Part shown: positions 29,104-53,600 of the stretch, in pieces | How the letters are laid out: every line of letters begins with the position of its first letter | Numbering within the stretch: the first letter of the stretch is position 1 | Assembly: GCA_016195085.1 (NCBI GenBank) | Contig: JACQAG010000026.1 | Location: 124,001-188,000 of the forward strand | Reading direction: 5' to 3' | From: Pseudomonadota bacterium | GTDB lineage: Bacteria; Pseudomonadota; Alphaproteobacteria; SHVZ01 | DNA length: 64,000 bases | Made by a program: the position numbers and the translations under genes | Notes under the pieces: model-generated | Databases searched by the model: none | What the model was told of the DNA's origin: nothing | Seen by the model: only the letters and a program-made list of their open reading frames with translations

Positions 29104-29206
29104 GCCCCCACCCCAACCCTCCCCCAACAAGTTGGGGGAGGGAGTTGAAGGATCGCGTCTCGCTCCCTCCCTCGCGCGCAAGTGCGGGGGAGGGCCGGGG
29201 TGGGGC
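29104..29206. repeat. Palindromic repeat element, intergenic copy
   Basis: A 103-bp element bounded by GCCCCCACCCC and GGGGTGGGGC, with an inner hairpin CCCTCCCCC-AACAAGTT-GGGGGAGGG. The same family, 101 bp long, sits inside imuB at 50090-50190. It fills most of the gap between the MFS gene and the hydratase. Confidence 0.8.
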
Positions 29207-29279
29207 ATCGCGGTGCTTTGGCATGCGGGGCGGCGGCCTGCTAGGCTCGGCGTCCAATTCGCCGATAATGGAAACCCCC

Positions 29280-47819: not shown

Positions 47820-48168
47820 ATCGGCTGGTGAAGGTCGGGCGGCGGCTTGGATCGAAGACATCCTCGACAACATCGGCCTGATCGAGGATTTCCTTGCCGG
47901 TATCACCCATGCTGCGTATCTGTCAGACAAGGAGAAGCAATACGCCGTGCAATTCGCGCTGCTCGCCATCTCCGAGGCGGCCCGCCGGCTCCCAGCGGGG
48001 ATGAAGCAGTGTCACCCCGGGATCCCCTGGCGGCAGGTCGAGGATCTGCGAAACGCCTATACCCACGCCTATCACCGGCTTAACCCGGAGATGGTCTGGC
48101 GCACGGCGCGGGAGAGTCTGGGGCCGCTCAAGAAGGCGATGCGGGCGGAGCTGAAGAGGTCGACCTAG
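47809..48168 (+). CDS. hepT: HepT-type HEPN toxin
   Basis: 119 aa, all-helical. The RX4HXY RNase motif is complete: Arg81, His86 and Tyr88 in LRNAYTHAYHRL. In characterised HepT/MntA pairs the Tyr of this motif is AMPylated by MntA, which silences the RNase. The Arg and His would form the active site of a dimer. A type VII toxin-antitoxin system is therefore likely. Confidence 0.87.
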   Translation: MPSRSAGEGRAAAWIEDILDNIGLIEDFLAGITHAAYLSDKEKQYAVQFALLAISEAARRLPAGMKQCHPGIPWRQVEDLRNAYTHAYHRLNPEMVWRTARESLGPLKKAMRAELKRST

Positions 48169-48200
48169 CTGTGGCACCAGTGTCGATGATCTTGCCCGGC

Positions 48201-48229
48201 TTGACAGCTGTCCCGGCTCGTTCTAGAAC
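48201..48229 (+). promoter_or_regulatory. SOS promoter of imuA-imuB-dnaE2
   Basis: TTGACA (48201-48206), 17 bp, TAGAAC (48224-48229). LexA boxes overlap and follow the -10, so LexA would block initiation until RecA activation. Confidence 0.7.
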
Positions 48230-48256
48230 AAAAGCAGAACAGAACAAATGCTGAAC
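48226..48256 (+). promoter_or_regulatory. Two tandem LexA (SOS) boxes
   Basis: GAAC-N7-GAAC at 48226-48240 (GAACAAAAGCAGAAC) and again at 48242-48256 (GAACAAATGCTGAAC). This is the alphaproteobacterial GTTC-N7-GTTC LexA site read on the other strand. Two exact copies one base apart suggest tight repression. Confidence 0.85.
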
Positions 48257-48260
48257 AGCC

Positions 48261-49037
48261 ATGGCTTTCGCATCACCCTGCCGGGTGCCCAATGAGCAGC
48301 AGCCCGGCTCGCTTGCCACGCTCAAAGCCCGGATGCGGGCCTTGGAGCAGGGCCGAAGCGAAGGGCCCGGCCGGATCCTGAGGCTGGGCGTGGCGGCGAT
48401 CGACCGCCTGCTGCCGGGCGGTGGGCTCGCGGCCACGCGGGTGCATGAGGTGGTGGGTGTATCCGCGCGCGACGGAGCTGCCGCCGCGTTCACCCTGGCG
48501 CTCATCGCCCGGCTCCTCAGCCAGACTCCGGGTCCGGTCCTCTGGTGCGGCCGGTATCTCGATCTCCATGGCCCGGGCCTGGCGGCGTTCGGCATCGATA
48601 CCGCAAGGCTGATCCTGGCGCGCACGCGCGATACGACCGAAACCCTCTGGGCGATGGAGGAGGGGCTGCGCAGCGCCAGGCTCGCGGCCGTGGTCGGCGA
48701 GCTCACGCGGTCCATCGATCTGACGGCGAGCCGCCGGTTGCAGCTTGCCGCCGAGAACGGTGAGACGACCGGGCTCTTGCTGCGGCCGGTCGATGCCGGC
48801 GATGGCACGCCGAGCGCGGTCGAGACCCGCTGGCGGGTGGTTTCGATGTTGGGAGCGCCCGCGACGGAAAACCTCGGCGTCGGCAGAACCGCCTGGCGGC
48901 TCGGCCTGGAGCGCTGCCGCGGCGGCGCTCAGGGGGAATGGATGGTGGAGTTGGACGATGCGACGGGTGATCTCGCTCTGGCTGCCGCGGTTTGCGACCG
49001 ATCGGCTCGGCCGGCGCCATTCCGCCTGGCGGTCTAA
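48261..49037 (+). CDS. imuA: ImuA, accessory protein of SOS mutagenesis
   Basis: 258 aa RecA/SulA-like fold. LRLGVAAIDRLLPGGGLAATRVHEVVG is the opening of the degenerate ATPase core, and GPVLWCGRYLDLHGPGLAAFGID follows. It works with ImuB and DnaE2 in translesion synthesis. It overlaps imuB by 80 bp, and its ATG is 5 bp after the second LexA box. Confidence 0.85.
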   Translation: MAFASPCRVPNEQQPGSLATLKARMRALEQGRSEGPGRILRLGVAAIDRLLPGGGLAATRVHEVVGVSARDGAAAAFTLALIARLLSQTPGPVLWCGRYLDLHGPGLAAFGIDTARLILARTRDTTETLWAMEEGLRSARLAAVVGELTRSIDLTASRRLQLAAENGETTGLLLRPVDAGDGTPSAVETRWRVVSMLGAPATENLGVGRTAWRLGLERCRGGAQGEWMVELDDATGDLALAAAVCDRSARPAPFRLAV

Positions 49038-50631
49038 GGCGCTTGCCACATCCCGGCCGGTGCATGGCCGGCTGACCATCGCCGCCTGCAACCGGCTGGC
49101 GGCGGAGGCCGGTATTGCGCCCGGCCAGAGCGTGGCCGATGCGAGGGCGCTTCTGCCCGAACTCACCCTGGCCGATGCCGATCCGGTAGGCGATACCCGG
49201 GCCTTGGATCAGCTCGCCCTCTGGTGCGGCCGCTATACGCCCTGGACCCAGATCGACCGCCACTCGGCGGCGGGCGGCGAGGGCTGGGGCGGGGATGGCG
49301 GGATCTGGCTCGACGTCACCGGCGCAACGCATCTGTTTGGCGGCGAGGAAGAGCTCATCGCCGATCTGGTGGAGCGGCTGGAGCGGTCCGGTCTGGCCGC
49401 GCGCGCCGCCATGGCCGATACCCCCGGTGCTGCCTGGGCCATGGTGCGCTTCGCCCCGTCTGCGCAAAATCTGATGGCGACACAAAGCCCGGTGGTGCCT
49501 GCAGGCGGCGTCGCCGCGGCGCTGGCCGAGCTGCCGGTCATGGCTTTGCGGCTGCCGGGGGTGATCGTGGATGGGCTCTCCCGCCTCGGCTTGCGCCGGA
49601 TCGGCGAGGTGGAGACGGTGCCGCGGGCTCCCTTGGTCGCCCGCTTCGGCGAGATCCTCGCCCGGCGCTTGGATCAGGCCCTCGGCCGCATGGACGAGCC
49701 GATCTCGCCCAAGCAGCCGGTGCCGCCCTTCCGGGCCCGGATGGGCTTCCCCGAGCCGATCGGGCTTGCCGAGGACATCGCCCGCGGCACGGGACGGCTG
49801 TTGAGCCAGCTTGCCGCCCAGCTCGACCGCGCCCATCAAGGCGGGCGCGCCTTCGAGCTCCTTTGCTACCGCGTCGACGGCGAGGTGCGCCGGCTCACGG
49901 TGCGCACGGGACGGCCGGCGCGCGAGCCCGAGCGCCTGCAGCGGCTCTTCGCTCAGCATTTCGACACGCTCGATCCCGGTCCCGGCATCGAGGTCATGGT
50001 GCTGGCGGTCTCTGTGAGCGAGGCGCTGGAGCCTTCCCAGATCCCACTGCCCACGCTCGCATCCAGCGAGCATCGTCCCCACGAGCCTCGCCCCCACCCC
50101 ATCCCTCCCCCACGCAAGCGCGGGGGAGGGCGTAATGATGCGCCTCGGACTCCCTCCCTCGCGAAAGCGGGGGAGGGATGGGGTGGGGGCACGGTAGCCG
50201 TCGACGATCTCGTCGATCGGCTCGCCGGCCGGCTGGGACTGGACGCGGTCATGCGCCTGGAGCCGCGGGAGAGCCATCTGCCGGAACGGGAATCCTCGCT
50301 CCGTCTCTTTGAAGAGACGCCAGCTCGCGTCGCCTGGCGCCGCGATCGGCCGCGCCCGGTGCGCCTACTGGCTCGCCCCGAGCCGGTGGAGGCGGTGGCC
50401 CTGGTGCCCGACCATCCGCCGGTGCTGTTCCGCTGGCGCGGCATCACCCACCGCATCGCCCGTGCCGATGGGCCGGAGCGCATCGCCGCCGAATGGTGGC
50501 GGGAGGATCGGCCGACCCGCGATTATTTCCGGGTCGAGGACGAAGCCGGACGCCGCTTCTGGCTCTACCGCGACGGCCTGTTCGGCGAGCCCGCCACCCC
50601 GCGCTGGTTCCTGCACGGGCTGTTTGCCTGA
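48958..50631 (+). CDS. imuB: ImuB, catalytically inactive Y-family polymerase of the SOS mutasome
   Basis: 557 aa from ATG 48958 (MRRVISLWLPRFATDR). It has the Y-family fold with ...WLDVTGATHLFGGEEEL and a C-terminal extension. ImuB proteins lack the catalytic acids of true Y polymerases and instead bind the beta clamp and DnaE2. A 101-bp palindromic repeat (50090-50190) is embedded in frame and adds residues about 377-412, rich in Pro, Arg and Gly. DnaE2 begins 11 bp downstream. Confidence 0.86.
   Translation: MRRVISLWLPRFATDRLGRRHSAWRSKALATSRPVHGRLTIAACNRLAAEAGIAPGQSVADARALLPELTLADADPVGDTRALDQLALWCGRYTPWTQIDRHSAAGGEGWGGDGGIWLDVTGATHLFGGEEELIADLVERLERSGLAARAAMADTPGAAWAMVRFAPSAQNLMATQSPVVPAGGVAAALAELPVMALRLPGVIVDGLSRLGLRRIGEVETVPRAPLVARFGEILARRLDQALGRMDEPISPKQPVPPFRARMGFPEPIGLAEDIARGTGRLLSQLAAQLDRAHQGGRAFELLCYRVDGEVRRLTVRTGRPAREPERLQRLFAQHFDTLDPGPGIEVMVLAVSVSEALEPSQIPLPTLASSEHRPHEPRPHPIPPPRKRGGGRNDAPRTPSLAKAGEGWGGGTVAVDDLVDRLAGRLGLDAVMRLEPRESHLPERESSLRLFEETPARVAWRRDRPRPVRLLARPEPVEAVALVPDHPPVLFRWRGITHRIARADGPERIAAEWWREDRPTRDYFRVEDEAGRRFWLYRDGLFGEPATPRWFLHGLFA
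50090..50190. repeat. Palindromic repeat element inside the imuB coding sequence
   Basis: Perfect 22-bp arms (50090-50111 and 50169-50190) start GCCCCCACCCC and end GGGGTGGGGGC, with an inner hairpin. The same family lies between genes at 29104-29206. The reading frame stays open through it. Confidence 0.85.
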
Positions 50632-50642
50632 GCCGCCCTGTC

Positions 50643-53600
50643 ATGTCCGGCTATATCGAGCTGCAGGTCACCAGCAATTACAGCTTTCTCGAAGGCGCCT
50701 CGCATCCGGGCGAGCTCGTGCGCCAAGCCGCCGCCATCGGCCATGCCGGTGCTGCCCTTGCCGACCGCAACACGCTGGCCGGCGTGGTCCGCGCCCATGT
50801 AGCGGCCAAGGAGACCGGCAGCCGATTTCTCGTCGGCGCGCGGCTGGTGCCCATGGACGGCCCGAGCCTCGTTTGCTTTCCCACCGATCGCGCCGCCTAT
50901 GGCCGCTTGTGCCGCCTCATCACGCTGGGGCGGCGGCGGGCGCCGAAGGGTGAGTGCCATTTCACGCTTTCCGAGGTGATGGGCCATGGCGAGGGTCAGG
51001 TGTTCCTGGCGCTCCCGCCGGATCGTCCCGAGGAGGATTTCGCCGCCTGGCTCCAGGATTTCGCCCGGCGCTTTTCCGGCTCCTGCTATCTGGCCGCGCC
51101 CTACCGCTATGACGGCACCGATGCGAGGCGGCTCAGGCGTCTCTCCGATCTCGCCGCCGCTGCCGGTGCGCCGCTGGTCGCCACCAACGACGTGCATTAT
51201 CACCTGCCGGAACGCCGCCCTTTGCAAGACGTGCTGACCTGCATCCGCGCCGGCACCACCATCGCGGCGGCCGGCCGGAGGCTGGCCGCGAATGCCGAGC
51301 GGCATTTGAAGCCGGCCGAGGAAATGGCGCGGCTCTTTCACGGCCATGGCGAGGCCGTGCTGCGGACGCTCGAGATCGCTCAGCGCTGCCGTTTCTCCTT
51401 GGACGAGCTCCGCTACGAATATCCCGAGGAGATCACCGGCGAGGGGCGGAGCCCGCAAGCCGAGCTCCAGCACCAGACCTGGACCGGTGCCGCCAGGCGC
51501 TATCCCGAGGGCGTGCCGGAAGCGGTGCGGCGCACGCTCATCCGCGAGCTGGCGCTCATCGAGGATCTCAGCTACGCGCCCTATTTCCTCACCGTGTTCG
51601 ATATCGTCCGCTACGCCCGCTCGAAAGATATCCTCTGCCAGGGTCGCGGCTCGGCCGCCAATTCGGCCGTGTGCTATGTGCTCGGCATCACCGCGGTCGA
51701 TCCCTCCGCCCATTCGCTCCTGTTCGAGCGCTTCGTCTCCGCGGCGCGCAACGAGCCGCCCGATATCGACGTGGATTTCGAGCATGAGCGGCGCGAGGAA
51801 GTGATCCAGTACGTCTACGGGAAATACGGCCGCGAGCGCGCCGGCATCGCCGCCACGGTCATCGCCTACCGCTCGCGCAGCGCCGTGCGCGATGTCGGCA
51901 AGGCGCTCGGCCTGTCGGAGGATACGGTGGGGGCGCTCGCCGGCTCGCTCTGGGGCTGGGGCGCCGAGGGCGTCGATGAGGCGCGGGTGCGCGAGATCGG
52001 CCTCGATCCGGCCGATCGGACCTTGCGCCTGGCGCTCGATCTCGCCCGCGAGCTCATCGGCTTTCCGCGCCATCTCTCCCAGCATGTCGGCGGCTTCGTC
52101 ATCTCCCGCGGCCCGCTTTCGGAGCTGGTTCCGATCGCCAATGCCGCCATGGCGGAGCGCACCAATGTCGAATGGGACAAGGACGATCTGGACGCGCTCG
52201 GCATCCTCAAGATCGACGTGCTGGCCCTCGGCATGCTCACTTGCATCCGCAAGGCCTTCCAGCTCATCGAGCAGCACAAAGGCCAGCGGTTTGACATGGC
52301 CGGCGTGCCGGAGGGGGATCCGGCGGTCTACGACATGCTGTGCCGGGGGGACTCGCTCGGCGTGTTCCAGGTCGAGAGCCGGGCGCAGATGAGCATGCTG
52401 CCGCGCCTCAAGCCGAGAACCCTCTACGACCTCGTGATCGAGGTGGCGATCGTGCGCCCGGGCCCGATCCAGGGCGACATGGTGCATCCCTATCTCCGCC
52501 GGCGAAACGGCGAGGAAACGGTCTCCTACCCCTCGCGCGAGCTCGCCCGCGTCTTGGGCAAGACCTTGGGCGTTCCCTTGTTCCAGGAGCAGGCGATGCA
52601 GATCGCCATCGTCGCCGCCGGCTTCACGCCTACTGCGGCGGATGAGCTCCGCCGCGCCATGGCGACCTTCCGGCGCAATGGCGATATCCATCGCTTCCGC
52701 ACCAAGCTGATCGAAGGCATGGTCGCCAAGGGTTACGAGCGCGACTTCGCCGCCAGATGCTTCCGGCAGATCGAAGGCTTCGGCACCTATGGCTTCCCCG
52801 AGAGCCACGCCATCAGCTTCGCGCTCCTCGTCTATGTCTCCTCCTGGCTCAAATGTCATCACCCGGAGGTCTTCGCCTGCGCGCTTCTCAATGCGCAGCC
52901 GATGGGCTTCTATGCCCCGGCGCAGATCGTGCGGGATGCCGCCGAGCACGGCGTCGAGGTGCGTCCCGTCGACGTCAATGCCAGCCATTGGGATTGCACG
53001 CTGGAGCCGGCGGCGGAGGGGGAAGAGGGGCAACCCCGCCTGGCGCTCCGCCTCGGCTTTCGTCAGGTGCAGGGTGCGCGCGCGGAAGACATCAAGCGGC
53101 TGGTTGAGTTTCGGGGGACCGGCTATGGCAGTCCGCGCGCGCTCTGGCTCAGGGCCGGGCTGTCGCCGGCGGCGCTGGAGAGCTTGGCCCGCGCCGATGC
53201 CTTCCGCTCCCAGGGCCTCGGCCGGCGCGAGGCCTTGTGGGCGGTGAAGGACTTGGGCGCCGAGCCCTTGCCGCTCTTCGCCGAGGCGGAAACCGCAGGG
53301 CCGGTGCAGAACGAGCCCCTGGTCAGGCTGCCCTCAATGCCGATCGGCGAAGAGGTGGTCGAGGACTATGCCTCGCTCAGGCTCTCCTTGAAGCGTCACC
53401 CGGTGGCCCTCCTGCGCGACGGGCTCGGCCGCGATGGGCTGTTGCCCGCCCAGGGCTTGGCCGAGCTCGCCTCCGGCCGCTGGATCAAGGTGGCCGGCCT
53501 GGTGCTGGTGCGCCAGCGGCCGGGCAGCGCCAACGGCATCGTCTTCATCACCCTCGAGGACGAGACCGGCGTGGCCAATCTCGTGGTCTATCCCGATATC

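Follow-up and report, generated by a model that had tools for sequence, protein, structure and literature searches.

A palindromic dimer lies in frame within imuB

The 64,000-nt window (the whole stretch of DNA that we analyzed) contains imuB between an imuA-type ORF and a dnaE2-type ORF, and a 101-bp inverted repeat at 50090-50190 lies inside the imuB coding region. The features of the locus, together with a second copy of the repeat elsewhere in the window, are as follows:

29104..29207, no strand assigned: second copy of the dimer family, intergenic
48261..49037, plus strand: imuA-type ORF upstream of imuB, assigned by position (no Pfam family at E<=0.01)
48958..50631, plus strand: imuB, encoding a 557-aa ImuB-type Y-family polymerase homologue, assigned by alignment to relatives and by Pfam
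50038..50052, plus strand: conserved glutamine motif QIPLP (residues 361-365), likely beta-clamp-binding
50090..50190, no strand assigned: palindromic dimer, 101 bp, covering imuB codons 378-411
50090..50111, plus strand: left perfect arm, whose minus strand reads GGGGGAGGG-ATG-GGGTGGGGG, the purine strands of the left triplex-type half
50103..50130, no strand assigned: left inner hairpin CCCTCCCCC-loop-GGGGGAGGG, read from the sequence, with loop pairing conserved across the repeat family
50131..50151, no strand assigned: spacer separating the two halves
50152..50177, no strand assigned: right inner hairpin CCCTCCC-loop-GGGAGGG
50169..50190, plus strand: right perfect arm GGGGGAGGG-ATG-GGGTGGGGG-C, with a putative third strand at 50181-50189; it also matches the canonical G-quadruplex pattern
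50197..50238, plus strand: VDDLVDRLAGRLGL stretch after the insert (residues 414-427), at the position of the RecA-NT/ImuA-binding motif, its putative identity
50493..53840, plus strand: downstream dnaE2-type DNA polymerase III alpha ORF, given from the first ATG, with the actual start probably further downstream

The initial annotation had described 22-bp arms around 57 bp in imuB, a reading frame that continues through them, an added Pro/Arg/Gly-rich loop and an intergenic family copy near 29104, and each of these observations holds. The arms are perfect 22-nt inverted repeats (50090-50111 and 50169-50190) enclosing 57 nt, and reach 35 nt at 83% complementarity when mismatches are allowed. 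A single open frame runs from the ATG at 48958 to the stop at 50631, with ImuB aligning on both sides of the element in that one frame, and the element adds ~34 residues with PHPIPPPRKRGGGRNDAPRTPSLAKAGEGWGGG as the encoded core. The second copy is real and lies outside any predicted gene; a strict dimer pattern matches twice in the window and not at all in 100 shuffles. Folded as RNA, the imuB element reaches -89.4 kcal/mol (z -10.0), and folded as DNA it reaches -46.9 (z -8.0), with no equally stable sequence among 200 shuffles in either case. A search for intrinsic terminators across 47900-51000 found none.

A G-rich segment of imuB at 49257-49293 looks like a decayed half element with mismatches. 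We considered it as a second element in ImuB and rejected it: in five same-family relatives, ImuB is equally long in this region.

The insert occupies a length-variable linker of ImuB

Pfam places an IMS domain at ImuB residues 39-161 and DUF6504 at 485-553, with IMS_C at 263-356 just under the cut-off. All three ranges miss the insert, which therefore lies between domains. In M. tuberculosis ImuB the clamp motif is 352-QLPLW-356 (PMC11791113), and its order in the protein matches that of QIPLP in the window ImuB; judged from sequence, QIPLP is likely the beta-clamp-binding motif. By analogy with the order reported in the same work, the helix-like stretch 3' of the insert is likely RecA-NT/ImuA-binding; a profile search and a PDB sequence search for its RecA-NT identity gave no match. 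The order and conservation of the two flanking motifs thus place the insert in the linker between them. The predicted ImuB structure had a mean pLDDT of 40, too poor for use.

The initial annotation had proposed aligning imuB from relatives to see whether the segment is absent, and the alignment bears this out. ImuB was found in 48 of the 115 genomes of a wider class set, and the alignment rests on 36 relatives, of which L245 ends before the linker; both alignments omit a truncated protein (L048), L226 duplicates L047, and L225 corresponds to the window itself. The insert peptide is absent from all 35 relatives whose ImuB reaches the C-terminus. All 35 retain the glutamine of the clamp-type motif and a stretch similar to VDDLVDRLAGRLGL, with a DRLxxRxG-type pattern in most. 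Between these landmarks, the linker (residues 366-413) spans 48 residues in the window protein versus 5-26 in the 35 relatives, showing that the insert lies where ImuB varies in length. ImuB proteins without the insert include those of five sister-genus genomes (~50% identity), three Bauldia MAGs and one Luteimonas. The genus of the window genome comprises one genome, and the empty-site comparison is one of proteins.

The imuB copy belongs to a dispersed, largely intergenic family

The strict dimer pattern identified 91 elements (39 + 52) in the 4.8-Mb genome, a draft of 95 contigs, versus none for a reversed-pattern control; a half-site pattern with one mismatch allowed gave 163 + 172 matches, versus 1 + 2 for the reversed pattern. 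We located 89 of the 91 strict dimers, using stretches that total 1.96 Mb and a further 44 shorter stretches, and called genes with a home-made script based on codon usage, so that small genes may be missed. Only one located dimer, the imuB copy, lies inside a predicted gene, while 74% (3722/5000) of random 100-bp stretches do so in the 1.96 Mb. The remaining dimers show an intergenic preference: 59 lie between co-directional genes, 24 between convergent and 4 between divergent genes, and 1 at an edge. Across the 89, the dimer lies a median of 23 nt past the upstream stop codon. A dimer most commonly leaves 4 of its 6 frames open (41/89).

The initial annotation had also suggested searching for other genes carrying the repeat in frame, and the 89 located dimers yielded no second case. 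A relaxed set of 96 elements in the 1.96 Mb (62 dimers and 34 single halves), all scanned against the called genes, added to the imuB dimer one single half-like match within a predicted gene (C18:57016-57063), which may be due to chance. An in-gene scan by flank score, which used the 92 of these elements with enough flank and required 15 bits on both sides, returned no matches; the right imuB flank itself scored 14.7.

Across the class, the strict dimer occurs in 13 of 385 sampled genomes, with 1-15 copies outside the window genome; a separate search found 1 and 5 strict dimers in genomes G001 and G005. Given these low numbers in other genomes, the 91 copies represent a lineage expansion. A related dimer with CCCCTCCC heads is present in a Methylocystis MAG (L057:3001-3118), apparently between two genes.

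Each half combines a hairpin with a candidate third strand

A consensus built on 61 of 66 pairs, at a spacing of 70-105, reads [T]GCCCCCACCCC-NN-CCCTCCCCC-variable loop-GGGGGAGGG, followed by a spacer and the mirror image. The G-rich strand of each half is CCCTCCCCC-loop-GGGGGAGGG-NNG-GGGTGGGGG, which corresponds to a hairpin joined to a third strand of mirror type. Positions 4 to 7 of the inner loop pair in 88-96% of cases (175, 173, 127 and 55 halves), versus 49-69% with reshuffled partners; several pair types occur at these positions, and thus the hairpin is kept while its sequence changes. A hairpin-only search gave 256 matches, 154 of them lacking the third strand; many such matches are expected because a palindromic hairpin is recognizable on both strands.

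Among the halves that bear a third strand, type A stems carry G at the matching position (65/65) and type B stems carry A (26/26), while the 11 mixed stems divide 8 to 3. Such agreement is consistent with a triplex; alternatively, it could have been inherited within just two old lineages, without repeated covariation. The same tracts match G-quadruplex patterns: in the 1.96 Mb, at maximum loop lengths of 2, 3 and 7, dimer halves hold 122 of 128, 172 of 197 and 175 of 266 motifs, respectively, and one first-order random sequence of equal length held 5, 11 and 142. The dimers thus supply most short-loop G-quadruplex motifs, which makes this lineage well suited to studies of their function and of their spread in the absence of an evident transposase. 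An Rfam search returned only hairpin-type matches, mostly to microRNA families and far below gathering scores.

The dimer resembles paired triplex motifs, REPs and RPEs to different degrees

We compared the family with published repeats as these are described in the cited reports. The closest correspondence is with the triplex motifs of Holder et al. (2015; PMC4666352). That account gives the pattern CCCTCNCCC-N3-6-GGGNGAGGG-N3-GGGNGAGGG, found 3610 times in 262 proteobacterial genomes, and describes E. coli TMECO, with inverted pairs known at five sites, as always intergenic and without linked mobility genes; a competing G-quadruplex fold is discussed. The left imuB half matches this description with a C-rich stem CCCTCCCCC (pattern CCCTCNCCC) and a G-rich stem GGGGGAGGG (pattern GGGNGAGGG); the right half has a G-rich stem of the TMECO type but CCCTCCCTC as its C-rich side. 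Both halves share the 3-nt second loop, ATG, followed by GGGTGGGGG, which differs from GGGNGAGGG at one position, with one mismatch allowed. The inverted pairing, the quadruplex alternative and the lack of a linked mobility gene are likewise shared. Unlike TMECO as reported there, the first loop is mostly longer than 3-6 nt and pairs with itself (it is 10 nt in the left imuB half, and 5 of 178 family halves have a first loop of <=6 nt with 9-nt stems), the third strand corresponds to the altered stem, pairs are common in the window genome, and the imuB copy lies within a reading frame, with 88 of the 89 located dimers outside predicted genes. E. coli TRIP1, considered as the same repeat, is not borne out by the published description to hand.

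REP dimers offer a second point of comparison. Di Nocera et al. (2013; PMC3733652) describe head-to-head REP dimers of the GTAG and CGTC superfamilies, the CGTC type lacking a dedicated transposase, and also REPs that lie in frame within genes for replication and repair, DnaE2 included. Several free-living species have intragenic REPs according to that report, which lists E. litoralis, S. alaskensis and X. oryzae among the carriers. It also identifies RPE-4 and RPE-6 as CGTC-tagged REPs with AT-starting 8-9 bp stems and short loops. Like REP dimers so described, the imuB family consists of head-to-head hairpins that are intergenic and near gene 3' ends, with one in frame in a repair gene. Unlike the GTAG and CGTC REPs of that description, it has no terminal CGTC/TGTC/CCTC or GTAG tag, no AT-starting stem and no CCA tail, a comparison that rests on the 61-dimer consensus [T]GCCCCCACCCCNNCCCTCCCCC; the stem ends of the imuB element are C/G. 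REPINs (PMC3116915) are also REP doublets that form hairpins and are dispersed in extragenic space; unlike REPINs with a RAYT, no RAYT was found in the window genome.

The initial annotation had likened the imuB segment to the Rickettsia palindromic elements (RPE). According to PMC2229807, RPEs are 105-146 bp long and have hit 19 Rickettsia reading frames, and the imuB element behaves similarly in being a dispersed palindrome of ~100 bp, in frame in a conserved gene and absent from relatives. Kinship is not supported: tag and stem differ from those given for RPE-4 and RPE-6, the sequence layout is different, and one of 89 located dimers is in frame versus 19 frames in Rickettsia. The accompanying statement that such elements are rarely reported in free-living alphaproteobacteria is weakened by the intragenic REPs in PMC3733652. 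The imuB element thus behaves like an intragenic REP or RPE and is most appropriately classed as a variant triplex-motif pair. What is new is that such a pair, intergenic-only in the E. coli account, is apparently translated here within ImuB. Our literature search, with subscription papers mostly outside its scope, found no report naming this element in imuB.

No transposition machinery was found for the family

We found no target-site duplication flanking the 61 dimers at offsets 0-5 and lengths 3-9 (0-2 matches versus 0-1.7 expected). Y1_Tnp (PF01797) had no match in the window genome or in any of six dimer-carrying family relatives, nor did REP_Tyr_transpos (NF047646) at E<=1 in the window genome. 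Six Y1_Tnp loci were found in 3 of 14 dimer-bearing genomes; their fetched flanks hold no dimer ends, and four of the loci, examined for inverted repeats, showed other repeats or none of note. A composite element was also considered and set aside, as judged by eye: three sites with opposite ends 1-3 kb apart enclose no transposase-like gene. The family is probably non-autonomous.

Two other alphaproteobacterial genomes (L176 and L178) carry Y1_Tnp genes flanked by GGGGACA-containing inverted repeats. These recall the TIR-associated tyrosine transposases mentioned in PMC3733652.

Origin of the imuB insertion

We conclude that the imuB segment is very probably one copy of a dispersed REP-like dimer of variant triplex motifs, inserted in frame and tolerated. 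The most likely route of spread is the handling of single-stranded hairpin DNA during replication, by a host function or one since lost. One copy would have entered imuB with a net length change that preserved the frame; since a length of 101 bp does not divide by three, bases must have been gained or lost along with the insertion. Insertions into genes would normally be purged by selection, which may explain why only one of the 89 dimers lies in a gene. The imuB copy may have survived because the frame was kept, no stop codon interrupts it within the element, and the linker accommodates additional Pro/Arg/Gly residues. We predict that ImuB with the insert is made and works about as before. 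Triplex-motif pairs, known as intergenic, can thus enter coding sequence in frame outside Rickettsia, and ImuB joins the replication and repair proteins that bear REP-like inserts.

Other origins fit parts of the evidence. A REPIN, that is, a REP doublet mobilized by a RAYT tyrosine transposase, would account for the two inverted REP-like hairpins at a spacing of 73-101, their intergenic location and their many copies; the missing GTAG tag, the empty transposase searches in the genome and its six relatives, and the Y1_Tnp loci without dimer ends make it unlikely. True kinship with an RPE-type protein-coding palindromic element is very unlikely, since the CGTC tag and AT-starting 8-9 bp stems given for RPE-4 and RPE-6 are absent, and the behavior shared with RPEs, including several open frames, is what speaks for it. 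Repeats of ~100 bp are typical misjoin places in draft assemblies, and two copies could have been misjoined within imuB; this we regard as extremely improbable, given that ImuB sequence flanks the site on both sides, correctly ordered and in one frame, with conserved residues, and is followed by dnaE2.

An adaptive insertion, in which the long linker, or a hairpin, triplex or quadruplex in the gene or mRNA, alters mutasome activity or dnaE2 expression, is an alternative that we consider quite improbable. In its favor, the sole intragenic dimer of 89 sits in a damage-tolerance gene, the RNA hairpin of the element is very strong, and REP inserts in DNA-repair genes, DnaE2 included, have earlier been remarked on as suspiciously frequent (PMC3733652). 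Against it, this is a single case, and the variable linker length in relatives fits tolerance and counts against adaptation. The bolder proposal that the triplex/quadruplex motif pair has been kept in imuB because it matters, retuning the host mutation machinery, is decidedly doubtful. At the DNA level, the pair would act as an obstacle to replication or transcription in a gene whose product handles stalled replication; at the protein level, the insert would lengthen the tether that separates the clamp-binding and ImuA-binding parts. Tolerance rather than adaptation is most likely.

Variation among the dimers

Three subfamilies coexist, with heads CCCCACCCC, CCTCACCCC (with an E. coli TMECO-like stem, CCCTCTCCC) and CCCCTCCC. 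The commonest dimer loop, CCCGCCTTCGGCGAG, is present in 13 of 178 halves and, in RNA form, would carry a UUCG tetraloop. Certain loop types are shared by many dimers, which gives the family a mosaic look. At two sites (C31:27654 and C39:92014), the hairpin loop of the dimer harbors another repeat type (GCCCTTCG...GCTCAGGGG), which lengthens the dimer spacing to 99-101.
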